Assembly: GCF_020509005.1 (NCBI RefSeq)
Contig: NC_063014.1
Coordinates: 620,001 to 684,000, forward strand
DNA: 64,000 nt
Origin: Fulvia fulva
Lineage: Eukaryota > Ascomycota > Dothideomycetes > Mycosphaerellales > Mycosphaerellaceae
Reading direction: 5' to 3'
Shown piece after piece: positions 32,489 to 57,185 of the stretch. The position numbers and the translations under genes were made by a program. How positions within the stretch are numbered: position 1 is the stretch's first letter; each line of letters begins with the position of its first letter. The notes under the pieces are model-generated. The model saw nothing but the letters and a program-made list of their open reading frames with translations, was not told the DNA's origin and ran no database searches.

Positions 32489-32758
32489 TATTAACGAGCT
32501 AAGGGCCCCTTTAGACCCTAAAATTTACGCGTCGAATCTCGTTAACCTTTAACGGTTGATTACGTAGTAGGGGTGTATAGGGGTACTACTAAGATATATA
32601 TAGCTAGGAGGCGACCTTAGTAGGAAGCAGGATTTTTACTAAGAATCTCTCTATAAGGCGAAAACACGGGAATCAAAAAATTTTAGAATTATTATCTTTA
32701 AGGACTACTATATATATATTTCACGGCCCGTAGACCGGCAAATATATATACCTACGCG

Positions 32759-33837
32759 GTCGACGACGAGAATCACCTGTACGTGGTGTCGGCTACGAAC
32801 CTCTCGTCTAGCTACGAGAGAGCCAAGTATTCTCACGCTAGAGCGTCGTGGGCGCGACGGGCGCGCAACGTAGGCGAAGCCGCGGCGAACAGAGGACTAC
32901 TAGCAAAACGGGTATGAAAACCATCCGACGAGCGTGTACTCGTGTCGGGAGCGAGTCCCTCTTCTTTCTACGTGTAAGAAGGGCGCGGAACCGTGGCCTA
33001 TACGCTCGATAGGACACCTCTAGTATAAGTGCAGAATTTTCACCTCCGGAGACCGCAAACCGAGCGGGCTGAGCGACGAACATTAGACGAGCGGACTATA
33101 GAACAACAACTGAGCGGACTATACAACGGCGTCGAGCGGACTACGAAACAATCTGGTGTTTGCCAGCGGGCAATGCGGTAGGTAGGTGGACACGCGACGA
33201 AGCCTGTAAGGGCATATTAAACACCCGGTATAGGAACGAGGGTTTTGCCTAAGGCACTGCCTGTCCCGCTACACAACGCACCTAGTCTGACATGGTAGAT
33301 TGCGACGAGGAAAAGACGATAGCCTGAGCAAGGAAAAGACGGCTGTTAGGACGGGGAAAAGACGTACAATGCAAGTGGATTAGTTCTGTGATCGGGGAGG
33401 ATCGAGGGCAGGGTGATAAGGAACTTCATATTGGTTAGTAGGTAGAAACGTAAGGAGTACGCTGCCCGGCGTGGTGTGTGCCCCGAGCAAACCTACGAGG
33501 CATAGACGGCCGCTTTCTAGAGATAGGCTGCGGTAACGCGAAGGGCGTCAAAACCTAGGGCGTGGTGTACACTGGCAGCGACGGCTGACACTGTCTGTAT
33601 AGCCCGAGAGGACGGATGCGCATGTCGGTCAATAGAGAGCACTAAAGGGCTTAGGCCTATGGAGGTGGATATTGGCTTAAGGAGCAAACAGGGAGGGAGG
33701 GCGTAGAGGGAAGCTTTTGCTCCGGGCTAACCTCTCGAAACGAGGCTACACGGTGGTGCTAGATGAGTGGGAAAGCGCGGTTAAGACTTGTCACCTTATC
33801 TCGTAGCTAGCTTACTAAATACGATTCCTTCCTTGCC
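32759..33837 (+). other. 5' module 1 (1,079 bp), copy in LINE B; possible ncRNA origin
   Basis: It aligns over its full length with 54335/54336-55413, with the same 3' end base although the LINE sequences that follow are different. No long frame or known RNA family was recognised. It has short inverted repeats able to form hairpins (CACC..GGTG near 32775, CTCTCG..CGAGAG near 32800-32820, CCTCTCGAAACGAGG near 33732) and two triplets of short repeats: GAGCGGACTA at 33089, 33112 and 33134, and GGAAAAGACG at 33309, 33332 and 33355. CpG is high and RIP light. A discrete RNA copied by template switching is the best explanation; a LINE-specific leader is less likely because two subfamilies carry it. 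Confidence 0.7.
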
Positions 33838-36611
33838 CGAAGGACCTGGGCACCTGGAAGAGAGGGGGACTCCAAGGCACGATCGACCTCTCCTGGATCT
33901 TAGATAGCCACTACCACACGGTAACCTACTGTGGGATCGAACATGAACTCGAGGCGTCGTTAGACCACATGCCAGTCAGGACCTCTATTGCGACACAGAT
34001 ACAACGCACACTAGCGAGAACCCCTAAGCCAAACTAGGGAAAGGCCCACTAGGCCAACATCTAGGCGTACCTCGATGACTCCAAGAGGCTAGTCCAGATC
34101 GCGCAGCAGCAATACAACAGTAAAGACGAGATAGACGAAGCAGTCTAGGGGTTGATAGACGAAATAAGAAAAGCGACCTCACTTCACGTTCCGCTTGCCC
34201 AACTAACGACATAGTCCAAACCATACTGGACGCCGGAGTGCACTGCGGTAGTAAGAGAAGCAAGGAGAGCCCGCCGGGTGTGGACGAGCAGCCATAGCGA
34301 GGAGGCCTAGAACGTATATAGGGAGGCATGCCAACAGAAGAAAGCCATAATACGGAGGGAGAAAGCAGTCGGCTGGAGGGCCACAGTGGAAGAAATCGCC
34401 GGCAAGCTAGAGAGGATGTGGAAGCTAGCGAAATGGGCCCGACAGGACCCTACACAGGGCCCCTCCTTCTCTATCCTAGCGCTACAATCGCCTAGTGGCC
34501 CGGTTAGCGACCCCGAGGCCAAGGCGCGTCTACTGGCTAGCAAGTTCTTCCCACCCCTAGTCGAGGCTGATCTAAGCGACATAAACAGCTCTACTCCCCT
34601 AGCCCCTAGCATCGCGGTCTAACAGGAGGTGTCCGAGGGAGAAGTTACCGCTGTGCTGAGGAAGTTGCCGGCGAAGAAAGCCCCGGGGCCGGATAGGATC
34701 CCAAACGAGCTACTAAAGAAGTGTAGAGATCAACTAGCCCTAGCAGTTATAGCGATCTTCAACGCCTGCCTACAGACCGGATACCACCCGATAGCTTTTA
34801 AACAATCGACGATAGTGGTCCTACGCAAGCCGTAGAAGGAAGACTATACGTAGGTGAAGTCGTACCGCCCAATTGCGCTCCTTAACACTCTTGGGAAGGC
34901 GCTTAAGAAGCTGGTTGCAACGAGACTCTCCGAGGCGGCAGAGGAACACTCCCTACTCCCGGACACCTAGATAGGTGCGCGCCTATAGCGATCGACGCTA
35001 TCCGCGATGGAACTTATCACCTCTTAGGTAAAGGCTATCTGGTATAAGAATAGGGACAAGGTGGCTTCCTTACTTAGCCTAGACATATCGGGAGCCTTCG
35101 ACTACGTGTCACACCCGCGGCTTCTCTACATCCTAAGGTCGAAAGGACTCCCTGAGTGGCTTGTCAACTTCGTACGGTCCTACCTCCAAAACCGCAGTAC
35201 GTCGATCCTGGTCGGCCAGTACAGAAGCCCATTTCAAGTAGTCCACACTGGAATCCCGCAAGGCTTAACGCTAGCACCTATTCTGTTCCTCTTCTTTATA
35301 GCGACGCTGCTCCCAGCCCTAGAATCCCAGAACACCGCTACGAGCGGCTTCGTAGACGACACAAACATCCTAGCGTGGTCTTCCTCGACTAAGGAGAACT
35401 GTAGGCTACTAGAAGAGAAGCACAAGATCTGCGAGGACTGGGCTAGGAGGCACGGGGCTCGGTTTGCCCCAGAAAAGTACAATCTGATACACTTTACGCG
35501 CCGGCCACGGTTCCACAATATGCAAGCTTCTATCCAGATACAGGGGCACACGACTAACCCGGCAAATCAGCTCAGGATCCTCGGACTATAGGTGGACCCG
35601 GCGCTACGGTGGAGGAAGCACGTATAGGCAATATTACGGAAAGCTGAACAGAATATAGCATTATACTAGAGGCTCACTGCGTCCACATAGGGGGCGGACT
35701 TCCGGCAGTCACGACTTCTATATACGGCTATTATACGGCCAGTCCTTACCTATGGCAGCCAAGTGTGGTCCTTAGGCGAGAGGGCCTGCCCATCGAAGGG
35801 ACTCGTCGCGCCGCTAGCGAAGATCCAAAACCAATGCCTAAGGAAGGTCACCGGGGCATATAAGTCGACACTAACGAGGATGCTTGAGCACGAGACCGCT
35901 ATACCGCCGATCGACCTATACATCCAGGGACTACGGACCTCCTACTTAGGCAAGTCGGCACAGTACCTAGTACAGAAGGTCATCGCCAGTGCAGTCGCAA
36001 GGGCCCGCGAATCAGTACTAGCGCACAAGGGCATTCGACCCGGAAACGAGCCGAACTACCGGGCAAGGGACGAACAGCTAGCAACACAATAGGAAGGTGA
36101 GAAATCGTTTGTAGAGCAACTATAGAAAGAGAGGTGGAACAACCAGGTTGTAGGGCATAGTGGACGCCCTTAGCCAGCGGGACAACCTAAGGAATGGTCA
36201 GCTACAAAATCCGCGGTCAAGCACCCCCCGAAGCTCATCTACTACCGCCTTACGAGGGCACAGAGTAGCATAGCAACCCAACTACGAAGCGAACACATCG
36301 GCCTCTAGGGGTACCTATCATAGAGGAAGGTTCCAGGATACACGAATACTAGCTGCCCCTGCGGCTATCGCTCCCAGAACGTACGGCACGTACTCCTCGT
36401 CTGTCCGAGGTAGTCGCTAGGAAGGGGGGAGTGGATGGCAAAGGCGAGGAACCGGACGATTGGGGTACTTCTTAACAACGCTGAAGACCTACGGCGTATT
36501 ACGAACTGGATACTAGAGAAGGGCTGGCTAGAACAGTACCGCCTAGTAGGAGCAGTACAGGAAGAGAGGACACGACGCAGCGCGACGAGACCGGCTGGGA
36601 GCGGGGGCTAA
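33838..36611 (+). pseudogene. LINE B ORF2: endonuclease end, reverse transcriptase, C-terminal zinc motif
   Basis: The frame opens with the last part of the apurinic-type endonuclease (GTIDLSWILDSHYHTVTY, then SLDHMPVRTSI near 33960). The RT domain shows KKAPGPDRIPNELLKK near 34675, VKSYRPIALLNTLGKAL near 34860, SLDISGAFDYVSHPRL near 35075, GIPQGLTLAPILF near 35255 and the catalytic FVDDTNILAW near 35349. A thumb segment (TGAYKSTLTRML near 35855) and a C-x-C-G-x7-H-x4-C zinc motif (about 36352-36405) follow, then TAA at 36609. No RNase H domain is seen. About 15 TAG codons at likely Gln or Trp positions disable it; 35061-35591 is the longest uninterrupted part (176 codons). Confidence 0.85.
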
Positions 36612-36858
36612 CGGGGTAGTGACATGGACTACGCACGTTCAGAGGGAAAGCTAATCTAGACAAGGAGTAGTCGGGGGCGGGAAGGGTTTTCACCTATTCG
36701 GGTTTCCCTTTGTACATAACAATAGATATATACCTACATAGGCCGGATAGGGTCCTAGAACAGGGGAATGACAAATCTATCTATCTATATACCTACGCGC
36801 AAACTATCCTAAGGACACTAGGCGCGCCCTTACTTACTAGGGTGGTTAGTCGTCTATA

Positions 36859-37060
36859 TTCTAGTAGTTAATAAGGGGGGGGTTCAAGTATAAACCTAGT
36901 GGCATTATTAGTACATTTTAGTGAAATCAAGGTCAAGGTCGACTCGAAGTCGAAATCTCAAGGTATTAAGGCACCTAAGGTCAAGGTTCTTAGTATTAAG
37001 TAAAGTAGTATAACGTTACGAGCAAGGTTACGGTTACGAATAATATTATAAGTTTCAGTT
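36859..37060 (+). other. Gypsy C leader between 5' LTR and gag
   Basis: A non-coding stretch just after the left LTR with a G-rich run (aaggggggg near 36880) and AAGGTC-type repeats. The tRNA primer-binding site should lie at its left end, but RIP prevents a confident match. Confidence 0.4.
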
Positions 37061-39800
37061 ATGTCTTTATCGAGGTTCGAGTCGTTTGCTAGTATTAGAG
37101 CTGGCCGAGAGTTACTAGAAAGTCTAACAAAGGCCTATAGGCCTTATAGGGAGGCCACAATCCTAGAAGGGATAGAAGACTCGGATGGCGACGAAGACAA
37201 CACCCCGGAGGCTTTAGGCTCTAATAAGGGCAAGGAAAGAGCACGACGAAATGACTAAGAAGAGGATGACTTAAATAAGGGCACTATAACGTTAGGAATG
37301 CCCTATAATCCGGATGCAATAGCAGCCTTATTTAGCCGTCTTACTGTTACTATAGAAAATGTAGGACCTCGCTTCCCTACTCTAGGGAGTCCGGAAAACC
37401 CCCTCTTAAATAGTAGGAACGCTACTAAATTCTAGGTGAGGTTCAATGATCTTATAGACTAGTATCCACTAAGGCTATTAATTAAGAAAGACAACTTCTA
37501 GGGTCGTTTTGAGCGTAACTACGAGACTACTATCCGACGTTTAGTAATAAGGTTAGAGGGATAGTAAGTAAGGCGGAGTACCTTTAGGAGGTCCTTCTTA
37601 GCTAAATTTTCGAGATTCGATGCCTATTCGATATTAGGAAGTCGAGAATATCTAGAAGAGATAGTCCGGGCCGAGTAAGGGAAAAGCCCCGAGGAATAGG
37701 ATATAAAGGAGTTTATCCGTCGCTTCGTAGCCTCTAGTGACCTAATTGATCTCAAAGACCTCGATAACAGCTCCCGTAGCCGTCTTCTACTTTAGAGGCT
37801 CCTAGAGTCAGTTACTAGGGCAGTTTATAAGAAATGTAGGCTCTATCCGAAGTAGCCTAAGAAGTTTCGGCGCTTTTAAAAGATACTAGACGAGGCGACA
37901 AGTATCGCTAATAGTAAAGAAGGATAGAAGGCCGTGTATACGGACTTTCTACTTACTTTACCGTAGCTTTATCGGTCAGTTATAAAGCAGATGCCGCGCT
38001 TAATCCCTAAGATTAATATACTTAACAAACTAGCTATTTCCGCTACTATCGACAATAAACTTATTTAGAAAATAGTAGAAATGAGTATTCGGGCTTACTA
38101 ACGAGGTCGCGCGGCGGAGGTTAGATCCTTTAACCCTAGTGAAAATCAAAGGTCTATATAACTAGAAAACCCCAATTGCATGCCTAAACTATAGGTTTAC
38201 TTAATATAGCGCCCGTAGTTATAGATCCGCGAGTAGTCTAAAGCGCTTAATAGGTACTATTATAACTATAGTAGTACGGAACATTAGGCTAATAGGTGCC
38301 CCGCGATACTAATCCTTGTCTTATAAGGGTATGTCTTTTTAGCGACGAATAACTAGTAGTATCTAGAAAAGAAGACCGATCTAAATCCCCCTAAGTTCAA
38401 CTTCCGACGGGACTATAGTAAACCTAAGCTCCTTTATATACTTCCGTAGCTTAAGGAACACTATAGCCCGATTCTATTTAATAAGGACATGAAAATCCCT
38501 ACGCTTCGGAAACAATAGATAGGTCGAGATTATACTAGTATCTTAAGCGTAAAGCTTCCTAACTACTCTAAACCTCTACCTAATAACCGACACCTTATAG
38601 AATACGGCCCTTAAGATGTTAGATCTAGGTAGTAACTAACGGCCGCTAGTAGTTACTAGATCTAGTTTAAGGAAGAAGAAGAACCGGCTCTATAAGGATA
38701 TAGGATCATAAACTACGACGAGTTTAAGGTTAAGGCCTACCTAATCTAGAGTAACAAATCTCGAGGCAAAGCTCTAGTAGGAATCATAAAAAACCTGAAT
38801 CCTCGAACTAGGTCTAGTATATAGGCATTAAGGGTACGAGCCGAGGCCGCTAAAGCTATACGATAAGAACTCGAAGAGGAGATCCGGTAGGAAGAACTCA
38901 GTTAGTAGGAGGCGGAGAAGATTAGAGACGCCGGTTCTAGGGCTAGTAGAAGCTAGTTAACGGTAGCGTTAGGGGAGACTCTTAGAAGGACATCTAACCC
39001 TCGAGCGGAATTAAGGCCTATGCCCTCGGAATAGCCGGTAGGGCCTATTAACGCCCTATTCGTATAGCGTAAACGGTTATAGAATATAAAGACGATAAGG
39101 ATTAATAACTACGTCCAACAGTACGGTATAGGAGATAGGCCCGTTACTAAGGAGGAGGGAGTGACCTATTAGATTGATCAAATCCTTTAGACTACGTTTC
39201 TAAACGTTAATGCCCGGGACTAGTTTCGGTATAGTCGCTAGTTCAAAGCTGCCTTGTTTAGGAGAGTAGTAAATACCCCTAATCTATAGTATAAGCTTAC
39301 TACCGTCTATAAGTTAGCTAGCTAAGAAGGGACTAAAGTCCGTACGAGTTATGTCGCTACCTATAAAGACGAGGAAGAAAGCGCTAATAAAGAAGTCTTT
39401 CGGGATGATTATTAAGCTCGCTTTATAGGTATGTTCTTAACGATGTTATATAGTAAGGATGCTACCCCTACCGCCGAGCTATACAAGAATATTAAAAAGA
39501 TCGGTCTCTCTAGTATACTAGACGATTTTGTAATAGTACCTAGCCCTTAGGTAGTTACCGAGCTTAGGACTAGTAAAGATTAGACTCGAGCCCTACTTAA
39601 CGAGGGATCTAAAGTCAACATTATTAGCCCGAGGATAGTACATAAGTTTAGCTTGCCTATCGTACCTAGCGCCTACTTGTCCTTTCGAGGAGCGGGTAGA
39701 AGAGCGAAGTTTAAGGAGGTAATTTCAAAGCTTTATACTTAGGTGTTTAGTATATATTAATAGAATACATCATTATATATAACTGACTAGTGAATCCGGA
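37061..39800 (+). pseudogene. Gypsy C gag relic
   Basis: The ATG at 37061 begins MSLSRFESFASIRAGRELLE, followed by 65 uninterrupted codons with an acidic stretch (GIEDSDGDEDNTPEALG). The capsid-like part includes RFNDLID near 37440 and REYLEEIVRAE near 37645. A zinc knuckle decayed to YYYNYSSTEH*ANRC lies near 38260-38300 (Cys to Tyr by RIP). Later segments are Arg/Glu-rich (EAEKIRDAGSRASRSQLTVA near 38910). The frame runs on to about 39750 and is then cut by LINE C near 39833. TAG codons are frequent. Confidence 0.75.
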
Positions 39801-39837
39801 CTATCGATCTCTACGCTAAAACACGACATATTCGAAA

Positions 39838-40360
39838 GCTCTTATCAAGGCCATTCTAACGATATATAAAGCAGGCCACTGCCCCTAGGACTAAGGGAGT
39901 TCTACCTTATTTAATCTAGACAGCTTGAAGCTCTCTTCACCCCGTTTCTTCAGCTCTAAACGCCGCGGAGGTGCCTAGCTACATTAGGCAACTCCTAGGC
40001 AATAGTAGCCTAGGCTACGGTACTAACGGCGCCTACGGCCCTATAGGCAAAGCCCCCCTAAGACAACTAGTAGCAACTTATAGAGGACGCAAAAAGTATA
40101 GAAACTAACGATTAGCTCCTATACCGGTCTCTATAGGTAATGATTACTTAGCTACGTACGGCGCTTGTACTATCGTATTACCGAGGGCAATAAGAAATAA
40201 GGACGACGTCCTAGGCGATTAGTAAGGCCACCCGGAATCAATACCCCTATAGCTAGGCATCGGTCGCGGCATCGATACTAGGCCCCCGCCTAACGTACGA
40301 TATAGTTACGATCCGTATTATAGTAAAGGAAGACTAGGCCGAAGTTACGAAGCTATCGAA
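39838..40360 (+). other. 5' module 2 (523 bp), copy in LINE C; possible ncRNA origin
   Basis: It aligns over all 523 bp with 23775-24297 and ends at the same base (..GCTATCGAA), although the LINE sequence that follows differs. It contains TATATAAAG about 20 bp from its start and a CTCTTCACCCC pyrimidine run about 85 bp in, but no long frame. This copy keeps more CpA than the other, even though its LINE part is heavily mutated. Confidence 0.65.
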
Positions 40361-43140
40361 TCCTAGGTACCTAGAAGAGAGGGGGACTCTAAGGTACGAT
40401 CGACCTCTCCTAGATCTTAGATAGCTACTACTATATAGTAACCTACTATAGGATCGAATATATACTCGAGGCGTCATTAGACTATATACTAGTTAGGACC
40501 TCTATTACGATATAGATATAACGTATACTAGCGAGAACCCCTAAGCTAAACTAGGGAAAGGCCTACTAGGCCAATATCTAGGCGTACCTCGATGACTCTA
40601 AGAGGCTAGTCTAGATCGCGTAGTAGTAATACAATAGTAAAGACGAGATAGGCGAAGTAGTCTAGGGGTTGATAGACGAAATAAGAAAAGCGACCTTACT
40701 TTACGTTCCGCTTACCTAACTAACGACATAGTCTAAACTATACTAGACGCCGGAGTACACTACGGTAGTAAGAGAAGCAAGGAGAGCCCGCCGGGTATAG
40801 ACGAGCAGCTATAGCGAGGAGGCCTAGAACGTATATAGGGAGGCATACTAATAGAAGAAAGCTATAATACGAAGGGAGAAAGTAGTCGGCTAGAGGGCTA
40901 TAGTAGAAGAAATCGCCGGCAAGCTAGAGAGGATGTAGAAGCTAGCGAAATAGGCCCGATAGGACCCTACACAGGGCCCCTCCTTCTCTATCCTAGCGCT
41001 ACAATCGCCTAGTAGCCCGGTTAGCGACCCCGAGGCCAAGGCGCGTCTACTAGCTAGCAAGTTCTTCCCGCCCCTAGTCGAGGCTGATCTAAGCGACATA
41101 AACAGCTCTACTCCCCTAGCCCCTAGTATCGCGGTCTAATAGGAGGTGTCCGAGGGAGAAGTTGCCGCTATACTAAGGAAGTTACCGGCGAAGAAAGCCC
41201 CGGGGCCGGATAGGATCCCAAACGAGCTACTAAAGAAGTGTAGAGATTAACTAGCCCTAGTAGTTAAAGCGATCTTCAACGCCTACCTATAGACCGGATA
41301 CTACCCGATAGCTTTTAAACAATCGACGATAGTGGTCCTATGTAAGCCGTAGAAGGAACACTATACGTAGGTGAAGTCGTGCCGCCTAATTGCGCTCCTT
41401 AACACTCTTAGGAAGGCGCTTAAGAAGCTAGTTATAACGAGACTCTCCGAGGCGGTAGAGGAACACTCCCTACTCCCGGACACCTAGATAGGTACGCGCC
41501 TATAGCGATCGACGCTATCCGCGATAGAACTTATTACCTCTTAGGTAAAGGCTATCTGGTATAGGAATAGGGACAAGGTAGCTTTCTTACTTAGCCTAGA
41601 TATATCGGGAGCCTTCGACTACGTGTTATACCCGCGGCTACTCTATATCCTAAGGTCGAAAGGACTCCCTAAGTAGCTTGTTAACTTCGTACAGTCCTAC
41701 CTCTAAAACCGTAGTACGTCGATCCTAGTCGGCTAGTATAGAAGCCTATTTCAAGTAGTCTATACTAGAATCCCGTAAGGCTTAACGCTAGTACCTATTC
41801 TGTTCCTCTTCTTTATAGCGACGCTGCTCCTAGCCCTAGAATCCTAGAACACCGCTACGAGCGGCTTCGTAGACGATATAAACATCCTAGCGTAGTCTTC
41901 CTCGACTAAGGAGAACTGTAGGCTACTAGAAGAGAAGCACAAGATCTACGAGGACTAGGCTAGGAGGTACGGGGCTCGGTTTGCCCTAGAAAAGTACAAT
42001 CTAATACACTTTACGCGCCGGCTACGGTTCTATAATATATAAGCTTCTATCTAGATATAGGGGCATACGACTAACCCGGTAAATTAGCTTAGGATCCTCG
42101 GACTATAGGTAGACCCGGCGCTACGGTAGAGGAAGTACGTATAGGCAATATTACGGAAAGCTAAACAGAATATAGCATTATGCTAGAGGCTCACTACGTC
42201 TATATAGGGGGCGGACTTCCGGTAGTTACGACTTCTATATACGGCTATTATACGGCCAGTCCTTACCTATAGTAGCTAAGTATAGTCCTTAGGCGAGAGG
42301 GCCTACCTATCGAAGGGACTCGTCGCGCCGCTAGCGAAGATCCAAAACTAATGCCTAAGGAAGGTTACCGGGGCATATAAGTCGATACTAACGAGGATGC
42401 TTAAGTACGAGACCGCTATACCGCCGATCGACCTATACATCTAGGGACTACGGACCTCCTACTTAGGCAAGTCGGCATAGTACCTAGTATAGAAGGTCAT
42501 CGCTAGTGTAGTCGTAAGGGCCCGCGAATCAGTACTAGCGTATAGGGGCATTCGACCCGGAAACGAGCCGAACTACCGGGTAAGGGACGAATAGCTAGTA
42601 ACATAATAGGAAGGTAAGAAATCGTTTATAGAGTAACTATAGAAAGAGAGGTGGAACAACTAGGTTGTAGGGTATAGTAGACGCCCTTAGCTAGCGGGAC
42701 AACCTAAGGAATGGTTAGCTACAAAATCCGCGGTCAAGCACCCCCTAAAGCTTATCTACTACCGCCTTACGAGGGTATAGAGTAGCATAGTAACCTAACT
42801 ACAAAGCGAACACATCGGCCTCTAGGGGTACCTATTATAGAGGAAGGTTCTAGGATATAAGAAGACTAGCTGCCTCTACGGCTATCGCTCCTAGAACGTA
42901 CGGCACGTACTCCTCGTCTGTCCGAGGTGGTCGCTAGGAAGGGGGGAGTAGATAGTAAAGGCGAGGAACCGGACGATTAGGGCACTTCTTAATAACGCTA
43001 AGGACCTACGGCGTATTACGACCTAGACACTAGAGAAGGGCTAGCTAGAACAGTACCGCCTAGTAGGAGTAGTATAGGAAGAGAGGACACGACGTAGCGC
43101 GACGAGACCGGCTAGGAGCGGGGGCTAACGGGGTAGTGAT
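40361..43140 (+). pseudogene. LINE C ORF2 relic (endonuclease end and RT)
   Basis: Collinear with LINE B ORF2 from the endonuclease end through the RT motifs (KKAPGPDRIPNELLKK near 41190, SGAFDY near 41610, FVDD near 41865) to the C-terminal zinc region near 42870. Gln, Trp, His and Cys codons are widely converted to stops or Tyr, so no stretch of frame is long. Confidence 0.8.
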
Positions 43141-43303
43141 ATAGACTACGTACGTTTAGAGGGAAAGCTAAACTAGATAAGGAGTAGTCGGGGGCGGGAA
43201 GGGTTTTCACCTATTCGGGTTTCCCTTTGTATATAACAATAGATATATACCTATATAGGCCGGATAGAGTCCTAGAACAGGAGAATAACAAATCTATCTA
43301 TCT

Positions 43304-46300
43304 GTATATTACTAGATCGACATGTTTGTCTCCGCTAATCTAGATTCGCCTACGATCCTTAGCCGCCCTTAGTATAGGAAGGTACGACTAATAGGCCGTA
43401 ACTACGACGATAGATTATAGGAGGGAACAATCGCTAGTAGGAAGGGTAAAAGTGTAATATTTACGGCTATTATAGGTACTAACAAGTACAAAACTCTTTA
43501 AGAACTTCTATAGTCCTCGAAAAATGCGAACGCGGGTTAATTTACGGTAGTCAACCCGCTATAAGTATTAGAAGTCCGGTTTTAAAACAAGTCCGCTTTT
43601 CGAGTCTAGTCGGGGAGACCTTAGTAAATATATTAGAGGCGGAGTGTTCTAACGATACGGCGCGTCGACATCGATAAGAAGGTATAACGAAGCTAAAACC
43701 TAAGCCTATAGACACGACTGTCTTCGACTACTTTAAGAACTACCGCGGCCCCGTATTATAATAAAGAGAAAATGTCCTCGACCTTAGCCCGTATTCGAAG
43801 AAATTGCTAGGACTGCTTGGGAATCGCTAATACTTAAGCGCTAAGGTGACTACTAACGCTCTAGGAGAGTAGGTTATTACAAATATATACTCCGTATAGG
43901 GCGACTAGTATACGGAGATCCTGAAACAGGGCCAGATTGATAGGTAGGCTTAGAAACGAGACGTATAGTTATATAGACCCGGTATTAGGATGCCGTATAT
44001 ATTTACTATATATAAGCGTAAAGCTCATAAGAAAAGACCTATTAACGCGAGCGTTTACGAGAGGCCTTAGTCGAAAGTAGATAGTGATATAGATTAGAAG
44101 CGAAAGGCCCTTTACTAGGAATCTCTAATACTAGTAGAGTAAGGCCCGTTCGATAGGAGGTATCTTATTAAAAAGTTCTCTAGTATCGAGCGCGGCTCGA
44201 GGATTATACCTAAAAGGCTCGCTAGTATTAAGGTTAGTATCGCTCTCTCGGCTAAGGAAAGACAAATGTTTAAAGAAATGCTCTTTAACCGAGAAGGTGT
44301 CCTAGCGTAGGATTTTAGCTATATACGGCAGATTAGACATAATGTTATACCTCCTTAGAAGATTATAACGATTACGTATAAACCGTAGTAGGCGCGGAAC
44401 ATTCGGTTATACCTAAGCTTACGAGCGATTATAGAATAGATAATCCGCGCTCGAATTAAGAACAGAAATCTTAAGTATAGTTAAGGTACTTATACGAATA
44501 CTTAGTTCTTAGTAGTAAAGAAGGTCGAGCTAAATAGTAAAGCTATACTATATAGGTTGATCAACTCCGCTATACTCTTAAACGAGGTAACGATAAGGGA
44601 TACGAACATTCCCCTAGATACGGACGGGCTCTCGGAAGACTTTACTAGGTGTAGGTAGCCTCTTTAGTAGACTTGTTTTCGGGGTACGACTAGATCACGC
44701 TTAACGAAAGTAGCCGAGACTTAACGGCCTTTATAACGCCTCTTAGGCTTATACGGTACATAACGTTACTATAGGGTACGACGAACTTAGTTACTTAGTT
44801 CGTACGGGTAGTAACCAAGGTGTTAATAGACTATATTTCTTACCGAGCAAAATTATTTCTTAACGATATCGGCGTAAAAGGTCCTACTAAGGACTATAGT
44901 AACGCTAAGGTAGAGCCTAGCCTTCGACGATAGGTCGTAGAACATATTTTGTCCCTTAATCTTATTCTTACGGACCTAGAGAGGGCCGGAGCGGTAGTCG
45001 TAGAGGAGAAGTCGCAGTAGCTTTATAAGACCCTAAAGATCGTAGGCTATATTACTAGCCCGAGCGGCCGCTATCTAGATCCTAAGGTAGTAGCTAAGAT
45101 CTTGAACTAGCTAACCCTAAAGTACGTAAAGGACGTTCGAGTTTATATTAGGATCTATATTTACTTCCGGACTTAGGTCCCCTAGTTCGTGATCGTCGCT
45201 CGGCTAATATATAAGCTTTTAAGGAAGGACGTCGAGTTTATCTAGACTAAGAATATATAGTTCTCGAAAGAGAACCTAGTAAGATTCTTAGTAATAGTAC
45301 TAGCGTTAGTAACTATCTCCTACGCCCTAGGAGCTAGTAGGATCTTCGTTTCTATTAATATAAGTAGCATTAGGTAGGGTTACGTAATATCGTAGAAATC
45401 ACTAGATAACACTCGACGAAGATACTCGGTAAGGTATAAGAGCGGTACCTAGAACGTAAAGGAGGCTAAGTACGATATAGGAAAGCGGGAGTGCCTCGGA
45501 GTACTAAAGGGCCTTAAGAAGGTATAGCGCTACCTCGTAGGAGTAGACTTTATCCTCGAAGTTAATACTAAACCGCTAGTATAGTAGTTAAATCGGCTAG
45601 TATCCGACATTCTAAACTCTATAATAGTGAGGTAGGTTACTTAGATCCGGCTACTTACCTTTAAAGTAAGGCATGTCGATAGGAAGAAGTACTCCGGACC
45701 GGATGTACTGTCTTATAAACTACCTATAGCTAAGGAGTTTACGGAACCTAACGATAATATTAATGAGATAATTAACGACAAATTCTTCCGTTACGCCGAG
45801 CTAGTTAACACTTTCCCCGTTATTCTAGAGCGTAAACGACTCCTCGAACCCTAGTATAGTAACAATTCCGAGCTTATAGCTTATATTCTAGTATATCGAA
45901 CACGACCGGAAGGGGTCACCCGGGCTAAGTATCGAAACCTCGTTAAGAAGAGTCCTCGGTACTACTTAAGAGACAAGCTCTTATTTTATTAGCGGCGAAG
46001 GGGTGTACCGATGTAGCTAGTAGTAGACGATAATAATACTTAGAAAGAGATCGTAATACACTATTACAAAAAGTATAGTCACCGGAGGATAGAGCTAGTA
46101 TATAATCTTATTACTAGCCGGTATTACTAGGAGGGCTACTTCTCCGACGTATCGGATTAGGTAAGGACTTGTACTCCTTACAACTTTCGCGAAGGCAACT
46201 AGAGAGTAGGGGAAATGTACTTATTAACTTAGTAGGTTATAGGAGAGAGGTAGTACTACGATCCCGTCTACGTATATAGAAACGGGTACTTACTTATCGC

Positions 46301-47370
46301 CCGAGAAGCTCTAAGTAGGTAGATTAAGGCGAAGGTCGTACGGAAGCCTCTAAATTTACGGGCGATTACTAAGTTCCTATACAAGATAGTGTTTAGCCGG
46401 TATAGATACTACTATGAGATTGTACTTAATAACGCTAGTATTAACGAAGGGGAGGTAGAGAGGATACTTATTAGTATAGGTATTAAGTATATCCGGATCT
46501 TACCCTACTATCCGTAGTTAAATACAACTATAGAAGTAGGATATCGACCTGTTCTAGCTATATTAGCTAAGCTTACTAAGAACACCTATAAGTCCTAGGA
46601 ACGATAGATTACTATAGTGCTTTAGGCTAATAGAACTACGGTATCTAGAATTACGGGCATAACGCCGGCGGAGGTTCTATATAGCTATCGTACTGTTCTC
46701 CTAATCGAGGTGGAATACCCGATATAGGCGAACTATAAATAGGGATCTATTAGATTAACGGAGGAGCTATTAGCTATTCGGGCGCGTTAGTTATAGGTAC
46801 GGGACATAAGTCTTTAGGAGTTATAGTTACGAAGAGTAAGGCTTCGTACCCTAAGTAAGGAATACTTCGATACTAAACGTAGTATTAACTTCTAGAGGTT
46901 CTAGGTCGGAGATCTTGTAGTCAAGTTCGACAAGCCGTATAAGGATGACCTATCTAGAAAGATTAGGTACCGCTAGCTTAGGCCGTATCGTATAGCTAAG
47001 GTGTACTCGGGGTTTAGTATATACGTCCTTAAAGAGCTTAATAGTACGAGGTTAAAGGGTGTATAAGCCCGAGAGAACCTAAAGCTGATCCTATAGTTAA
47101 GACCGGACCCGGAGCTTAATCTTCCTAACGCTAAAGACATTATAGCGCTAGAGGATAGGGTTGATGTCGAGAATATCGAAAAAGGCGATCTTCCGAATAA
47201 GAACAGACCTACTACGTCCGAATCTAACGACAAAGAGGATGACGATATACTTCTAATAGGCATTAATAGGGCTACTATACTTCCGGAACTAGAATCTAAG
47301 CCGACGAGACTATAGGTACGGCCTTATAACCTTACTACGGAGGAGATAGCCAAATTCACTAGGATTTAGA
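43304..47370 (+). pseudogene. Gypsy C pol relic: RT, RNase H, integrase
   Basis: It resumes after LINE C. The RT palm includes FLNDIGVKGPTKDYSNAK near 44855 (the catalytic Y/F-x-D-D with one Asp read as Asn) and WHK-type flanking segments. RNase H lies near 45420-45720 (GLKKVQRYLVGVDFILEVNT near 45510, RHVDRKKYSGPDVLS near 45675). The integrase zinc and core region covers 46000-46760 (SIGIKYIRILPYYP near 46480, ANRTTVSRITGITPAEVLY near 46625). The end has GDLVVKFDKPYKDDLSRK near 46910 and the usual PYRIAKVY..YVLKEL stretch. A short acidic tail follows. TAG stops are numerous. Confidence 0.8.
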
Positions 47371-47731
47371 TCAAAGGAGGGATAGGACTCTATTATTTCT
47401 TTTTCTTAGGCGTAAGGAGTTCACTTAGTAGTTTTGGTTTCTAACCTTAGTTTAACTAGCTTCTAGTTATAGTACCTAGTTTCTAGGGTGCTTAACCGAT
47501 TTCTAGGCTATATCCTTAATTTAAGAGTAGGCTTACTATAAAGACTAGACTTTAACTTAGCCTCCTTAGCCCTTATAGAATAAACTTGCGATCTCCTTAA
47601 TATCTCTAGACTGACTACTTGACTAGACGCCGGATCCGCCTTCTTTACGTATAACTTGTAGGTATAGTTTCTTAGTCTATATTAGCGTAGCGGAGGTAAA
47701 ACTAGAGACAGTTTTGTAATAGGGGAGGATA

Positions 47732-48060
47732 TATTAACGAGCTAAGGGCCCCTTTAGACCCTGAAATTTGCGCGTCGAATGTCGTTAACCTTTAACGGTT
47801 GATTACGTAGTAGGGGTGTATAGAGGTACTACTAAGATATATATAGCTAGGAGGCGACCTTAGTAGGAAGTAGGATTTTTACGAAGAATCTCTCTATAAG
47901 GCAAAAACACGGGAATCTGAAAATTTGAGATTTATTATCTTTTAGGACCACTATATATATATTTCACGGCCCGTAGACCGGTAAATATATACACCTACGC
48001 GTAAACTATCCTAAGGACACTAGGCGCGCCCTTGCTTACTAGGGTAGTTAGTCGTCTATA
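47732..48060 (+). repeat. 3' LTR of Gypsy C, 329 bp
   Basis: It begins TATTAACG (TG to TA by RIP) after the polypurine tract and ends GTCGTCTATA. It matches the two-part left LTR over its whole length. Confidence 0.9.
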
Positions 48061-48515
48061 CTACTACTAGGAGGCACCTAGAGGCGAAGCTATAGTAGGT
48101 ATCTAAGGTTACGGTATTAGCGAAGGTCTTAACAAAGTAATTTACGATCCTAGTCTACGATATACCTAAGGAGTTCGACCTGACTAACTAAGGTCACCTA
48201 CGTACTCTCTAAGAGGACAACCCGGTCACTCTTAACTCTCTAATCTAGAAGGCGACTTAGCTCTATAGAAAATAGCTAGAAGGTAAGAAGGCCTCGGCGC
48301 TAATAGTATAGCTATAAGACGCGAAAGCGGCGGATCTAGTAATAGAACAAGGCCTAATCTAGTAATATAGCCTTAAGATAGTAGAAAAGTACTCCTTATC
48401 CTTTCGTGTCCTCTAATAGTTCAAATGCTAATAGTATAGACACTAAACCTATACGTATATAAATAAGTAGGTCTACTCGAACTATATAGGAGACTAGATT
48501 AGGGACCTAAGAGTT
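48061..48515 (+). mobile_element. LINE F, third fragment: ORF1 with decayed zinc knuckle
   Basis: It continues the LINE F gag frame interrupted by Gypsy A and Gypsy C. FTILVYDIPKEFDLTN near 48150, KKASALIV near 48285 and IEQGLI**YSLKIVEKYS near 48345 match the layout of LINE G ORF1 (KRASSLILWVTTLEQ ... LDQGL). Knuckle-type positions near 48420-48480 have Cys read as Tyr. The right edge, where LINE G begins, can only be placed within about 48490-48520. Confidence 0.6.
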
Positions 48516-48521
48516 GGGAAA

Positions 48522-49814
48522 ATGGCGACGACGACGGCAGTAGACGACCGAGAGCAAGGGGGAGACGAGTGGAGGACGCTCTACAAGAAGGCGGAAGAGA
48601 TAGTGGCGGCAGAAGAAGGGAGGTTTCCGGAGAGAGCACTAAAAGGAGTAATAAGCGAACTGCTCGGGGGACTGAAGGCGCTCAAACGACAAACAAGCAC
48701 TACGATCAACATGGCAATCGAGGCAGCAACACGAAACGCAAGAAACAACCCTCAAAGAGACCCGAGACAGACCTAGGGCCCAACGACCTAGGTAACAATC
48801 GCGAGCCAACTCACCCCCCCTCAAAGCACAGTACTACGAGTCTATATTACGGACCAGAAAGAGAAGGAAGAGATAGGAAAGATGACCGGGAGGGAGATAG
48901 TCGAGAAGATCGGAGTAAAGGGAATAGTAGGGGCAAGGGCAGACAACAAAGGGGTCAAGCTGTTTACAGCACACGTATAGGACAAGAAGACCCTCGAAAT
49001 AAATAAGGAGTAGACACTAAAGATCGGGAGCACAGCGAAAGTCTCCCATCAACAGTACATAGTAATTGCGCATAGGGTCCTACGAACCTTTGACACACAA
49101 AGGGATACACCAAACCTCTAGAGGCAAAACTAGGTAACAGCACCAGGACTATAGATCATAAAGACAGCGTGGGTCAAGAAGAAGATAGAGGAGGGCAAGA
49201 GGGCCTCCTCGCTGATCTTATGGGTTACAACACTAGAGCAAGCGAACAAGGTCTTAGACTAAGGGTTGTACTAGGACTTTGAGAGGCTGGATGTAGAAAT
49301 CTATCAGAGCAACTACAGAATCCTTTAATGTTTCAACTGTCAACAGTACGGACATATTGCCCCAAAGTGTAGCAAAGCCACACCAGTCTGCTCACACTAT
49401 GCTAGTGATCACGCGACCCAAGAGTGCCAAAAACGGAAGGAGGACACAAGATGCGTAGCATGTGGGAGAAAACACCCGGCATGGTCAAACCAATGCCTAG
49501 TTAGACTATTAGCCCAGTAGAGAGCGCGGGAAGCAAGGGTAACAACACTAACCAGGTTCCTAGTAGGTAAACAGAAACAACTAGAGAGAACCACCCACCC
49601 GAATAAGAGACCCCGGCTATAAGAGGAGCCACAAATAGTGCTAGCAATAGGGAGACTAACGTTCTTATACAAGGCAGCGTAGAGCAATGGACAAATGAGA
49701 ATCAACCAAATGATAGGGAGCCAACCCCAAAGGGAAGAACAGGAGGAGGGACGGGAAAACCAATAGCAAGACTAACAGCAAGACCAAACGGACCTAGACA
49801 CAAACATGTCCTAA
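48522..49814 (+). pseudogene. LINE G ORF1 (gag-like, three CCHC knuckles)
   Basis: From ATG (MATTTAVDDREQGGDEW) to TAA the frame is 431 codons, with in-frame TAG at about a dozen positions where Gln or Trp would be expected; the first 84 codons are clear. The N-terminal third is charged and helical in character (LYKKAEEIVAAEEGRFPE). The centre is an RNA-binding-type segment (GKRASSLILWVTTLEQ preceded by KKKIEE near 49180). Three knuckles lie near 49330-49500: CFNCQQYGHIAPKC, CSHYASDHATQEC and CVACGRKHPAWSNQC. The C-terminus is Gln-rich. This is the usual ORF1 layout of Tad-clade LINEs. Confidence 0.85.
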
Positions 49815-49819
49815 TGCCT

Positions 49820-52800
49820 CACACTAACAGACTATTAATCATTCAGTATAATGTGAACAGAAGCAAAGACAAGGTCCAAAGGAGCTTTCTACAAGCCTTA
49901 GACCCGGAGGAACACCACATTATAGCAATACAGGAACTATAGATCAACCTACACTCTAGGATTCTATCAACTGTACGAGACCCGAGATACCACATAGTGA
50001 TAAACAGAACCGAGGGAGTCCTACGAACTTGTATCTATGTCAGTAAGAAGGTACTAGCAGAGGACTAGCAGGCCTGGCCGAGAACCGACAGGGATATCAC
50101 TATAGTGTAGCTCAAAATAACTCAAGGCTAGGTCCTGATCTATAGCGTATACAACCTACCTCTAGAGTCCGGAAGCAGCACACAACTACACACGCTAGGA
50201 AGGCTCCCGGAAGCAATGGACCAACAAAACCACAACATCGTGATAGGAGATTTCAACCTCTACTACCTAAAGTGGGGATCGGACTTCACCCTAGTACACC
50301 ACTTCTTAGTAGGGAGGCTTATTGGTTAGATAGAAACAGCCTAAATGGACTTGATCACGCCAAAGGGAACAGAAACTTAGGCTAGAAACAACAGTTCTAG
50401 CACGCTAGACCTATGCTTTATGTCCCACGCCTTAACACGACGGGTAGAAAGCTGCATAGTCAATGACCAACTAGAGTCCTCATCAGACCACTATCCAATC
50501 CAAACCGACATCTAACTCACAGTTGAGGAGGAGAGGGAACCTGAGAGGAGGCTCTGCTAGAAGCTGGCCGAGTAGACACTAGTATAGCAGCGGCTAGAAG
50601 GCGAACTAGAACAGGTGAACATTGACAACATACACACAACGGAGGGGATTGACCAAGCAGTAGAGCAGCTGATAGAAGCTATACAAAGGGCAGCCCAGGC
50701 CTATATACCTAAGAAGAGATGGTCGCTATACCAGAAGCTATACTAGACACTAGAGTGCATAGCCAAAGTCAAGGAGGCAAGGAGAGCAAGAAGGAGATAG
50801 GAGCAACGGCGTACCTAAGTAAACTAGGAAGCCTATAATAACGCGTGCAAAGCAAAGAAGGCGCAGATTAGAAGAGACAAGACGCAGGAGTGGAGGTCAA
50901 CTATAGGGATGATCACAGAACACCCGGAACAAATCTAGACTAGCAGAATAGGCTAGGAAACTAGACGAGGAACGAAACTCCCCGCCCTAGTTTCCCTTAA
51001 TATAGGACCAAGACGGGGAAACGCAAACCACTCCGATAGGGAAAGCGAAAGCATTCGTAGACCACTTCTTCGGGACTTAGGTAGAGGCAGACCTAAGCAA
51101 CATCCTAGGAACACGCATTCCTCCGCTAAGGGAGGCTAACTAGCAAGTGTCTACTATAGAGATCGGAAACATTATCAAGAAACTGAAGGGCAACAAAGCC
51201 CTAGGCCTAGACAAGATCCCTAACTGTTACCTAAAAGCTAGCAGTAGCCTCATCACTCCAGTGCTTACGCCAATCTTTACCTAGTGTATAAAGCAGGGGT
51301 ATTGCCTAAAGGCTTTTAGGCAATCACTGACTTGCGTCCTAAGGAAACCCTAAAAGGAAGACTATACCAAGTTGAAGTCATACAGACCAATTGCGTTGCT
51401 AAACATACTAGGGAAGCTCCTAGAGAAGGTCGTGGCTATAAGGCTCACCGGAATAGTAGAAGAACACAACCTCCTCCCGGCAACGCAAATAGGGGGGAGA
51501 CAAAAGAGATCTACCCTCATAGCAGTCGAACTGATCATAGAGCAAATCAGACACATCTGGCACTATAGTAACAATAAGGTAGCCTTACTGCTTTCACTAG
51601 ACATATTAGGGGCTTTCGACAACGTGTCCTACGTAAGGCTCCTACACATCCTTAGAATGAAAAGCATCCTAGCCTAGATAGTACACTTTGTGCAGTCATT
51701 CCTTAAGGACAGAACAACCCAGATCCTCCTAGGGTCCTTTAAAGCCCCGCAGACCCCAATTACGAACACGGGCATCCTATAGGGCTCTACACTCTCCCCA
51801 ATTCTGTTCCTCCTCTTTATGGCCGACCTGACCCTACTCCTAGAAACAGCAAACACCTTAGCATCGGGGTTCGTAGATGACACAAATATCCTAGCGTAGT
51901 CGGGGTCTATAGAGGAAAACTGCGCACTCCTAGAGGAGAGACATAGACAATGCGAAAAGTGGGCAAGAGAGCATAGGGCAAAATTCGCACCGGACAAGTA
52001 CCAACTTATCCATTTTAGCAAGGCAAAGACAAAACACAACTTGGCAGTACTAGTAAAAATCCGGGGGTTCGAGACCTATCCTATAAGGGAACTCAGAGTC
52101 CTTAGGATATGGCTAGACCCGAAACTCAGCTAGGGACCATAAGTGAAGAAGGCGTAAGCGAGAGCGGACACCAACAGACAATCAATCGAGAGACTCACTA
52201 CGTCAACCTAGGGGGCGACCTTTACAAAGGCCCAGACCATGTACAAGGCCATTGTCAAGCCCGCAATGCTATATAGAGCAGCAATTTGGGCAGCGGAAAA
52301 ACACATCCCGAAGAGAATTGAGGACCCCCTTAACAGAGCGCAGGCAGCCTGCCTAAAGAGAGTACTAGGGGCATACAAGTCAACCCCTTACAGGACAATA
52401 GAAATGGAATCAGGTACAGCCCCTATCAGGGAGTACCTCCAGGGCATGAGGTGTCAATACGTAGAGAAGACATCAGCATACCTAGCCTAGGGAACCATCT
52501 AAGTAGCTACTCAAAGGATAAGAACCTAGTGGGAGAGGAGGAGAAGACCTAACCGGCCACACATGATCCTATAGAAGGAAGCAGACCTAAAAACATCACA
52601 GGAAATCCTAGCAGCCCTTGAACAGAGAGAAGCTCTGAGGGAGCAAGCTAACACAGGGGACAAAGGGAAAAAAAAGCAAAGCCAAGCAGAAAGGATCGCA
52701 GGTCACCTATAGGAAACGCGTTAGAACCAAAAACCGGTGAGGCCAGGAGCCCCACCAGCGGCCAGGACCTTCGGGAGGTATAACTACCTTATCTACAAAG

Positions 52801-53218
52801 ACCTGAAGAGGGCGGAAGCAAGCATAGCTATCCAGATTCGCTCTAAGCACATTGGGCTGAGAGCATACTTGCACCAAAGAAGAGTCCTAGGATACGATTC
52901 CAAACGTTGCCCCTGTGGCTACCTATCCCAAAACCCGGAGCACATGGTGCTGAACTGTACTAAGTGGGCAAAAGGGAGAAGCCAGTGGAGGGCGAAGGCA
53001 AGAGACAGGCAATACCAGGCTATTATCCAGGACAGACAAGATATAAGGAGAGTGACAAGATGGATCCTTAACGAGGACTACCTAGAGCAATTCTCCCTAG
53101 TAGTAGAAACGGAAAGGTAGATAGAGAGGAGGGAGAGAGAGAGAAGAGCCGGGGAAACAGAAGGGAGAAAGGGAATCGAGAGGAGGACATCACTAGGGTT
53201 ACGGGCAAGGTAGTTATA
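49820..53218 (+). pseudogene. LINE G ORF2: endonuclease, reverse transcriptase, zinc motif
   Basis: The endonuclease starts near 49835 (RLLIIQYNVNRSKDKVQ) and has HHIIAIQEL near 49915, NIVIGDFNLYYLKWGS near 50235 and SSDHYPI near 50480. The RT follows with a proline-glycine fingers region near 51200, YRPIALLNILGKLLEKV near 51378, SLDILGAFDNVSY near 51595, GSTLSPILFLLFMADL near 51785 and the catalytic FVDDTNILA near 51870. The thumb (LGAYKST near 52365) and the zinc motif (CPCGYLSQNPEHMVLNC, about 52910-52960) lead to the end near 53218. TAG codons and at least one probable shift near 51050-51330 disrupt it. Confidence 0.85.
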
Positions 53219-53421
53219 GGGTAACAACCATAACACTAGCGTACCCTGAAGGAAGGAGAACGAAAGGACAAGACAGGAAAGAACGAGGAGGGCAAAGACG
53301 AGGAGGTTTTCATCCGTTAATCGGGTTTCCTACCTACATAAATAGACCTAAATAGCGAGAGACCTGCATAGGCCATAGGGCACTAAAACAGGCGAATGAA
53401 TAATCTATCTATCTATATAGA

Positions 53422-53980
53422 CGAAGAAGGCGGGAGCGATATTACCTCCCTCTACGTAGGTAGTACCTAGATACACAACCTATATATATAACCGCTAGCC
53501 TCGAGGTCTAGCCGCGACCTAGGGGTCTATAGACACCTAGATAGTACGCTTAAGAGACAAGGATTCTACATCGTAGTAGGAGACTTTAATATATACTACC
53601 CTTCCTAGGAAAGCCTTATATAGCCGCACCCTATAGCCGACGAAGTACTCGACTTAATAGCGAGAAACGTAATTGCCCTTAATACCCCGAAGGACCTAGA
53701 CACCTAGAAGAGAGGGGGACTCTAAGGCACGATCGACCTCTCCTAGATCTTAGATAGCTACTACTATACGGTAACCTACTATAGGATCGAACATATACTC
53801 GAGGCGTCGTTAGACTATATACTAGTTAGGACCTCTATTACGATATAGATATAACGTATACTACTAAGAACCCCTAAGCTAACCTAGGGAAAGGCCTACT
53901 AGGCTAGTATCTACGCGTACCTTAACGACTCCGAGAGGCTAGTCTAGATTATGTAGTAGTAATATAATAGTAAAGACGAG
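53422..53980 (+). mobile_element. LINE E fragment: endonuclease domain, RIP-mutated
   Basis: The frame shows DEEGGSDITSLYVGST near 53423, YIVVGDFNIYYPS near 53575 and GTIDLS near 53735, then TSI near 53838, matching the end of the LINE B endonuclease. It belongs to the LINE B/C subfamily by sequence. It could be the continuation of LINE F with the segment between gag and endonuclease missing, or a separate copy. It is cut at 53981 by Copia C. Confidence 0.7.
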
Positions 53981-54103
53981 TGTTAAAGTGAATGCCCGTA
54001 TACTAGCGTATATAGTTACGTATAGCTATAGACTAGGGTTATATCTCTACTATTAGACACCTAGCGACCTATAATAATATTAACTATTAATCTATAACTA
54101 ATA
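53981..54103 (+). repeat. 5' LTR of Copia C, about 123 bp
   Basis: It begins TGTTAAAG where LINE E stops and ends ACTAATA (CA to TA) directly before the primer-site-like GGTTATAAGCCCGGG. There is no second copy in the window to confirm the length. Confidence 0.6.
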
Positions 54104-54335
54104 GGTTATAAGCCCGGGGGCGTTATTCGATACCTATAGATGTACTAGACACTACTAATACGTACTATAGTACTAAAAACGACCTTTAGAGGTGCTATTG
54201 TCGCCGCCGTAACGTTACCGTCGCTATCGTATATACGCTAAGGCCGGAAATCAGAATTTTTACTAGACCCTTTAAGCGATATAACCGTAGGCTACGGCTA
54301 TACGACGAGCCCTACATATATATATACACGATTAG

Positions 54336-55413
54336 TCGACGACGAGAATCACCTGTACGTGGTGTCGGCTACGAACCTCTCGTCTAGCTACGAGAGAGCT
54401 AAGTATTCTCACGCTAGAGCGTCGTAGGCGCGACGGGCGCGTAACGTAGGCGAAGCCGCGGCGAACAGAGGACTACTAGCAAAACGGGTATAAAAACCAT
54501 CCGACGAGCGTGTACTCGTGTCGGGAGCGAGTCCCTCTTCTTTCTACGTATAAGAAGGGCGCGGAACCGTGGCCTATACGCTCGATAGGACACCTCTAGT
54601 ATAAGTACAGAATTTTCACCTCCGGAGACCGTAAACCGAGCGGGCTAAGCGACGAACATTAGACGAGCGGACTATAGAACAACAACTGAGCGGACTATAT
54701 AACGGCGTCGAGCGGACTACGAAACAATCTAGTGTTTGTTAGCGGGCAATGCGGTAGGTAGGTGGATACGCGACGAAGCCTATAAGGGCCTATTAAACAC
54801 CCGGTATAGGAACGAGGGTTTTGCCTAAGGCACTACCTGTCCCGCTACACAACGCACCTAGTCTGACATAGTAGATTACGACGAGGAAAAGACGATAGCC
54901 TAAGCAAGGAAAAGACGGCTATTAGGACGGGGAAAAGACGTACAATACAAGTGGATTAGTTCTGTAATCGGGGAGGATCGAGGGCAGGGTGATAAGGAAC
55001 TTCATATTGATTAGTAGGTAGAAACGTAAGGAGTACGCTGCCCGGCGTAGTGTGTGCCCCGAGCAAACCTACGAGGCATAGACGGCCGCTTTCTAGAGAT
55101 AGGCTACGGTAACGCGAAGGGCGTCAAAACCTAGGGCGTAGTATACACTAGTAGCGACGGCTAACACTGTCTATATAGCCCGAGAGGACGGATGCGCATG
55201 TCGGTCAATAGAGAGCACTAAAGGGCGTAGGCCTATAGAGGTGGATATTGGCTTAAGGAGCAAATAGGGAGGGAGGGCGTAGAGGGAAGCTTTTGCTCCG
55301 GGCTAACCTCTCGAAACGAGGCTACACGGTAGTACTAGATAAGTAGGAAAGCGCGGTTAAGACTTGTCACCTTATCTCGTAGCTAGCTTGCTAAATACGA
55401 TTCCTTCCTTGCC
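54336..55413 (+). other. 5' module 1, copy in LINE D
   Basis: Collinear with 32759-33837 from first to last base (the first G overlaps the target duplication). Most differences from the LINE B copy are CpA or TpG changed to TpA. The GAGCGGACTA and GGAAAAGACG triplets and the terminal CCTCTCGAAACGAGG hairpin are conserved. Confidence 0.8.
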
Positions 55414-56990: not shown

Positions 56991-57185
56991 AGGCCTATAA
57001 CACTAGCGTACCCCTAATAAGGGAAAATTAAGACAACAACTAGGAGGAAAAGATAGGCGGGAAGGAGGAGGGGTTTTCACTAACACGGTTTCCCCTCTAT
57101 ATATACGAAAACAAGATAGTATAGCTATATAGGCCAAAGGGCACTATAACAGCTTAATGAAATATCTATCTATATACACGATTAG

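Follow-up and report, generated by a model that had tools for sequence, protein, structure and literature searches.

Chimeras of a constant 1.1-kb non-coding module and variably truncated LINEs in the genome of Fulvia fulva

Fulvia fulva (Cladosporium fulvum) is a fungus that infects tomato. The window analysed here, a stretch of 64,000 nucleotides on contig NC_063014.1 (C3 in our numbering), carries two composite elements, chimeras B and D, in which a unit of about 1,079 bp, here called the module (window positions 32759-33837 and 54335-55413), stands in front of a long interspersed nuclear element (LINE) that lacks its 5' part. Throughout the assembly (67,169,167 bases in 14 contigs) the module keeps the same 3' end, and the LINE joined to it begins at many different points. 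We consider it probable, at roughly 0.6, that a non-coding RNA some 1,079 nt long has, complete and repeatedly, been reverse-transcribed onto truncated LINE RNAs by template switching.

The C. fulvum Race 5 assembly is telomere-to-telomere; its repeats are strongly affected by repeat-induced point mutation (RIP), and the LINE Tad1 constitutes 16.3% of the genome (PMC9453070). The loci described below are numbered from L001 onwards.

Module ends and LINE breakpoints across the genome

The 14 bases that end the module, GATTCCTTCCTTGC, have 246 matches genome-wide, and the reversed control has none. One match is due to chance, leaving 245 true junctions of the form TTGC, all of which were read. 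A further 28 places have the same module end with T (26) or A (2) instead of C following TTG, so that the exact 3' ends total about 273; RIP-damaged ends are outside this count. Twelve of the 28 lie at one LINE hot spot, three of them as loci and nine from the pattern match alone, and L255 and L256 are also joined to LINE. At each of the 259 ends examined, the module is followed by LINE, either directly or after a short extra stretch, or else by another module. Whole modules are seen in a set of 62 long loci; at most other places only the 101 bases around the 3' end were read, and the presence of a whole module there is extrapolated from the long set.

Of the 62 long loci, 60 have a complete module that reaches one common 5' end. 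The two exceptions are L046, which looks like module-module-LINE, and L049, which starts at module base 487. Among the 41 genome matches listed, for which 40 of 658 candidates were scored, 40 span query base 1 to 1077-1079, the query ends bounding the match, and the last covers 296-1079 only and adjoins another module copy. A G stands directly before GTCGAC in 56 of 59 cases, and in L012-L016 this G lies outside the target duplication; the RNA therefore probably starts with GG or bears a cap-derived G.

At its other end the module finishes in ...CCTTCCTTG, with a following C or CC that is also present in LINE. The last certain module base is the G at 33835 in chimera B and at 55411 in chimera D. 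The preliminary description of the window had proposed one fixed 3' base. The end is indeed constant genome-wide, with no variation beyond the shared C's, whereas the exact base is uncertain by one or two C's, because at 100 of 102 breakpoints the LINE reference, too, has the C's that follow the terminal G.

Junctions were called on 250 reads, comprising the 245 TTGC junctions, L024, L253, L254 and extended reads at L108 and L111. These last two loci hold older copies of the module, with 96.5% identity, that lie on LINE-like sequence of another kind. The 250 reads fall into 112 distinguishable LINE breakpoint groups, a few of which differ by a one-base slip. A LINE reference that diverges from the chimera upstream of the break is available for the groups of 238 reads; the remaining 12 reads (10 loci) were called LINE by eye from reading frames. 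The LINE parts carry endonuclease, reverse transcriptase (RT) and CCHC ORF1 domains, have the same orientation as the module, are joined to it directly and are truncated at variable points. Two sets of three copies with one breakpoint each are found close together: L061-L063 (C1, 8.826-8.835 Mb), about 4.67 kb apart, and L115-L117 (C9, 0.928-0.956 Mb), 11-17 kb apart. They are either local duplications or nested insertions.

When loci were linked at 85% identity or more, the 250 reads were distributed over LINE clusters of 101, 83, 30, 16 and 6 reads and three single-locus clusters with 2 each; 8 were unassigned. The four ORF1 types are 31-52% identical to one another and the three ORF2 pieces 45-60%. 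These sequence comparisons indicate at least four LINE families, a lower bound because the ORF1-only clusters and one ORF2-only cluster may belong together. The constant module end with a variable LINE breakpoint, first noticed in two elements, thus extends to 112 groups and these families.

Outer target site duplications of 12-16 bp are found in 10 of the 62 long loci, chimeras B and D included. In most of the others the LINE end is beyond the stretch examined. Where the outer duplications are visible, module and LINE were inserted as one unit by the LINE machinery, as had been claimed for the two elements of the window.

The features of these two elements are given in table 1. Alignment, a consensus of 31 copies and the genome search agree that both carry the same module. 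It is followed in B by endonuclease sequence and in D by the RT of another LINE family (the score for the RT domain comes from a family related to D and not from D), and each element has a single outer pair of duplications; all this had been described correctly. Module copy B differs from the consensus at 21 positions, 20 of them of type C>T/G>A. Since nearly all the differences in both copies are of this type, their divergence is mostly RIP-like.

Table 1. Features of chimeras B and D (window positions).
Feature	Positions	Strand	Evidence
Chimera B, 5' target site duplication, 14 bp, TATATACCTACGCG	32745..32758	+	exact repeat before module and after LINE
Chimera B, module, GGTCGAC...CCTTCCTTG, first G common to target duplication	32758..33835	+	alignment to 31 copies; genome search
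Chimera B, 5'-truncated LINE, cluster 1, start inside endonuclease region	33836..36785	+	breakpoint shared with L030; ...ATAC|CCCGAAGG in L008, an intact reference
Chimera B, 3' target site duplication, 14 bp	36786..36799	+	exact repeat
Chimera D, 5' target site duplication, 15 bp, TATATACACGATTAG; 16 with T that is also module base	54321..54335	+	repeat
Chimera D, module, RIP-mutated	54335..55411	+	56 differences from consensus, 55 of them C>T/G>A
Chimera D, 5'-truncated LINE, cluster 0, start at LDIAGAFD of RT	55412..57170	+	breakpoint hot spot, one-base slip of L005 group
Chimera D, 3' target site duplication	57171..57185	+	repeat

Elsewhere in the window, positions 5260-6222 (forward strand) hold a 320-amino-acid open frame of repeats like APTGEESKKPAKAPTAAKTPAE; the antisense frame is open too.

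Independence of the joinings and the rule at the break

To compare module variants, 64 modules were read against one unchanged copy with RIP-context changes set apart, and haplotypes were then compared among the 49 that had no more than 40 differences. Ten modules identical over 1,078 bases sit at ten breakpoints. The haplotype C109T-A111G-G314A-A733G-T895C is shared by seven copies, some with further changes, at six breakpoints, and the haplotype G83A-C109T-C144T-G314A-G366A-G449A-G494A-G743A by three copies (L013, L017 and L022) at three breakpoints. Conversely, there are pairs with the same breakpoint and near-identical LINE parts that carry different modules: L048/L054 (no difference over 900 LINE bases, 5 in the module), L010/L043 (1 and 6) and L042/L056 (2 and 7). 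One haplotype at many breakpoints and different modules on near-identical LINEs at one breakpoint together show that the joinings were repeated and independent. Gene conversion among copies could mimic part of this pattern. The pairs L005/L006 and L039/L041 have common flanks and look like duplications.

The break itself was scored in the 102 groups having a LINE reference. The LINE base at -1 is a pyrimidine (Y) in 101 of them (G once, A never) and the base at -2 a purine (R) in 88. The first copied LINE base (+1) is C in 100 and the second in 73. The C at +1 is partly a product of searching for ...TTGC, and a figure less affected by this selection is 245 of 273 places; R and Y are free of it. 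RYC is found at 86 of the 102 breakpoints, and at 70 of 77 when the reference is at least 98% identical; several of the 16 exceptions are one-base slips within C runs. Of the 100 breaks at which C comes first, 86 have RY in front of it, compared with 24% of the C's in the LINE background (p about 1e-39, with breakpoints in related LINEs partly dependent on one another). GAC occurs within +3 to +12 at 43 of the 102 used sites, at 151 of 1,070 unused RYC sites and at 17% of all positions. The breaks thus obey R-Y|C(C), often with GAC a few bases downstream.

The hot spots fall within three bases of homologous RT codons, before LDI(A/S)GAFD, in three LINE clusters: TAT|CCCTCGACATC with its one-base slip (22 + 9 reads), CTC|TCACTGGACATA (12 places) and AGC|CTAGACATATC (5 reads). 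They are exemplified by L010, L021 and L024, and the ORF2 pieces of the three clusters concerned are 45-60% identical. Module-module-LINE doubles, in which the second module is 5'-truncated, are found at L020, L107, L118 and L119, and L046 is probably another. At the first four, where the broken RNA is the module, the RY|C rule holds too. The LINE base at -1 equals the terminal G of the module in only 1 of the 102 groups, which speaks against microhomology at this base; the shared C is a possible microhomology, indistinguishable from the end of the module itself.

Joining of the two RNAs and origin of the module

We propose the following course of events. The LINE machinery would nick an A+T-rich target, and reverse transcription would begin at the 3' end of the LINE RNA. 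The RT would halt within this template at R-Y|C(C), the cDNA would then be extended along the module RNA from its 3' end right through to its 5' end, and the product would be inserted as one unit. The module would be the complete reverse-transcribed copy of one RNA of about 1,079 nt, starting with GG and ending in ...CCUUCCUUG(C). The joinings occurred repeatedly and drew on several source haplotypes; the partners were LINE RNAs from at least four families, and sometimes the module RNA itself. The copying of a complete second RNA is strongly implied by the fixed ends, the sense orientation and the independent joinings. Template switching is the likeliest joining step; it is the published model and requires no extra enzyme.

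Four observations weigh against this reading. The bases at -1 and -2, not yet copied when the RT reaches the break, matter there, and simple RT drop-off does not account for them. The junctions compared show no untemplated bases. Among the 259 examined of about 273 exact 3' ends, none belongs to a stand-alone module. Finally, the pairs L031/L048 and L005/L010, each with one breakpoint, agree in both parts (0-1 differences) and differ in their flanks, so that a chimera may have been re-mobilised as a unit in these cases.

The first of these points is more directly accounted for if the two RNAs were joined beforehand. The LINE RNA would then be cut at R-Y|C, the module 3' end would be ligated to the 5' end so created, and the chimeric RNA would be retrotransposed; an RNA ligation model has been proposed for U6/L1 chimeras (PMC13174262). 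A rule that spans both sides of the break, the excess of GAC downstream of used sites, the precise look of the joints and the identical rule where the module is the broken RNA are all in keeping with such a course. Template context can, however, likewise make RT pause, and a module-module-LINE double would take two ligations. Moreover, we know of no cutting or joining enzyme with an R-Y|C preference. Joining at the RNA level is therefore a tentative alternative, and we rate template switching about twice as highly.

Either joining model requires a source of the module RNA. The G+C content of the module is 56%, and no sizeable open reading frame was found in its sense and antisense frames: the longest ATG frame is 52 amino acids in sense and 91 in antisense with the standard code, and 123 if TGA is read as W. 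Rfam covariance models, with E up to 10, gave no intron family and nothing near the gathering score, and group I and group II introns and the other Rfam families were rejected. A telomerase RNA was rejected, as the telomeres of the assembly are TTAGGG and the template AACCCTAA is absent from the module. A Pol III short interspersed nuclear element (SINE) was rejected as well, since simple patterns reveal no A and B boxes and there are three internal TTTT. The minimum free energy of folding is no better than that of 100 dinucleotide shuffles (z = +1.3; -1.4 to +1.7 in 150-nt windows) and lends no support to an unusually stable fold. Locus L113 (C5) had looked like a stand-alone source, its downstream sequence matching no LINE, and was rejected: the 6-kb region holds a chance 14-mer adjoining an aquaporin-like frame. 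L108 and L111 were set aside as sources too, their module copies lying on LINE-like sequence. An aquaporin exon of this genome is 93% identical to Dothistroma septosporum.

It is conceivable, though improbable, that the assembly holds no ordinary nuclear gene for this RNA, which would then be extrachromosomal, come from left-out sequence or derive from processed chimeric copies. In keeping with this is the lack of a stand-alone copy, a verdict that covers 259 of the 273 exact 3' ends; WEIRD, the non-coding part of similar chimeras in Magnaporthe grisea, was also without a solo copy in a then incomplete genome (PMC2104539), and a 179.1-kb mitochondrial contig lies outside the 14 contigs. The G+C content of the module speaks against an origin of this kind, as does a search of viral contigs with one 35-mer, which gave no match. 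So does the haplotype of L013, L017 and L022, three copies with different breakpoints. Because it carries seven RIP-context changes in addition to G743A, it argues for a RIP-hit nuclear copy as the source of the RNA at least once. A nuclear gene for the RNA should be struck by RIP just as its copies are. The source gene may be among the remaining 14 ends or in sequence outside the assembly, or the source may be transcribed, processed chimeric copies.

The module could also be regarded as a regular 5' unit (promoter or untranslated region) of LINEs or SINE-like elements that spread as ready chimeras with internal deletions. The lack of stand-alone copies among the 259 ends examined, the large size of some breakpoint groups (22 and 19 reads) and the pairs matching in both parts with different flanks are compatible with this. 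So is the position of the module in a few of the 112 groups, whose breakpoints are just before the ORF1 start (L002, L025 and L075, by eye). Only these few breakpoints are so placed, and the module is no common 5' untranslated region of full-length LINEs. In L011, L093, L100 and L256 a short stretch absent from other copies (35 bases in L256) lies between the module and the LINE start. All these near-full-length cases look, partly by eye, like LINE transcripts begun upstream of the element in flanking DNA. With 112 breakpoint groups, at least four families and a single 3' end, with module haplotypes and LINE parts assorting independently and with outer duplications pointing to single insertions, a regular 5' unit is already disfavoured, and we regard it as most improbable.

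Equally improbable is a module RNA that attaches itself to other RNAs. Its terminal G would join R-Y|CC sites (with GAC nearby) in whatever RNAs are accessible, further copies of the module among them, through a transesterification that is RNA-guided or ribozyme-like and resembles the opening step of reverse splicing by an intron. LINEs would merely record the products, and the degenerate R and Y would be what a guide U and G accept by wobble pairing. The module matches no intron family, and no guide was found in it: an 18-nt window duplex scan of 61 used against 120 unused RYCC sites gave at best t = -3.3, compared with -3.8 for a shuffled module.

Comparison with known chimeric retroelements

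By their architecture and junction sites, rather than by comparison of WEIRD and module sequences, the F. fulva chimeras are most simply classed as chimeric retrotransposition of the MINE type in a second fungus and on a larger scale. MINE elements are WEIRD-MGL and WEIRD-MgSINE chimeras of M. grisea; WEIRD is expressed, non-coding and 1,113 nt long (PMC2104539). As in MINE, a 5' part of about 1.1 kb, here probably a full-length non-coding copy, precedes a 5'-truncated LINE in the same orientation, outer duplications are present, no solo copy was found and double chimeras occur. The junction sites agree closely as well. Those of MINE, given as GCC*(A/U), are mostly G-Y-C* in Table 3 of PMC2104539, where the motif is termed necessary but not sufficient and microhomology with WEIRD was looked for without success; R-Y-C in F. 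fulva is a relaxed form of GYC. The differences concern number (33 chimeras in MINE, about 273 exact 3' ends here), partners (one LINE and one SINE in MINE, at least four LINE families here) and the composition of the doubles (module-SINE-LINE in MINE, module-module-LINE here). Among the top-ranked literature matches, PMC2104539 is the only report of such fungal chimeras.

In the U6/L1, U3/L1 and other mammalian L1 chimeras, too, a truncated LINE is preceded on its 5' side by a host non-coding RNA in the sense orientation, and template switching or RNA ligation has been proposed for them, as here (PMC13174262). The available text of that report describes no junction motif like RY|C and mentions neither microhomology nor pyrimidines. 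The mammalian partners are known small RNAs, whereas that of F. fulva is a 1.1-kb RNA outside the Rfam families. The LINE parts themselves resemble LINE/Tad1 of C. fulvum (PMC9453070, PMC10823647), a likeness based on domains alone. In their available text, PMC9453070 mentions no such module and PMC10823647 neither chimeric elements nor target site duplications.

In the literature searched, MINE elements have so far been a curiosity of one species; F. fulva provides a second and larger case in a distant ascomycete, with one anonymous long RNA as the common partner of several LINE families. About 100 sequenced junctions can now be used to ask how LINE RTs or RNA-joining enzymes pick their points. 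The chimeras also raise the question of where, in a genome with complete chromosomes and RIP, the gene for this RNA lies and how it survives amid hundreds of copies. They point to a repeated, rule-bound fusing of unrelated RNAs and to their writing into the genome.

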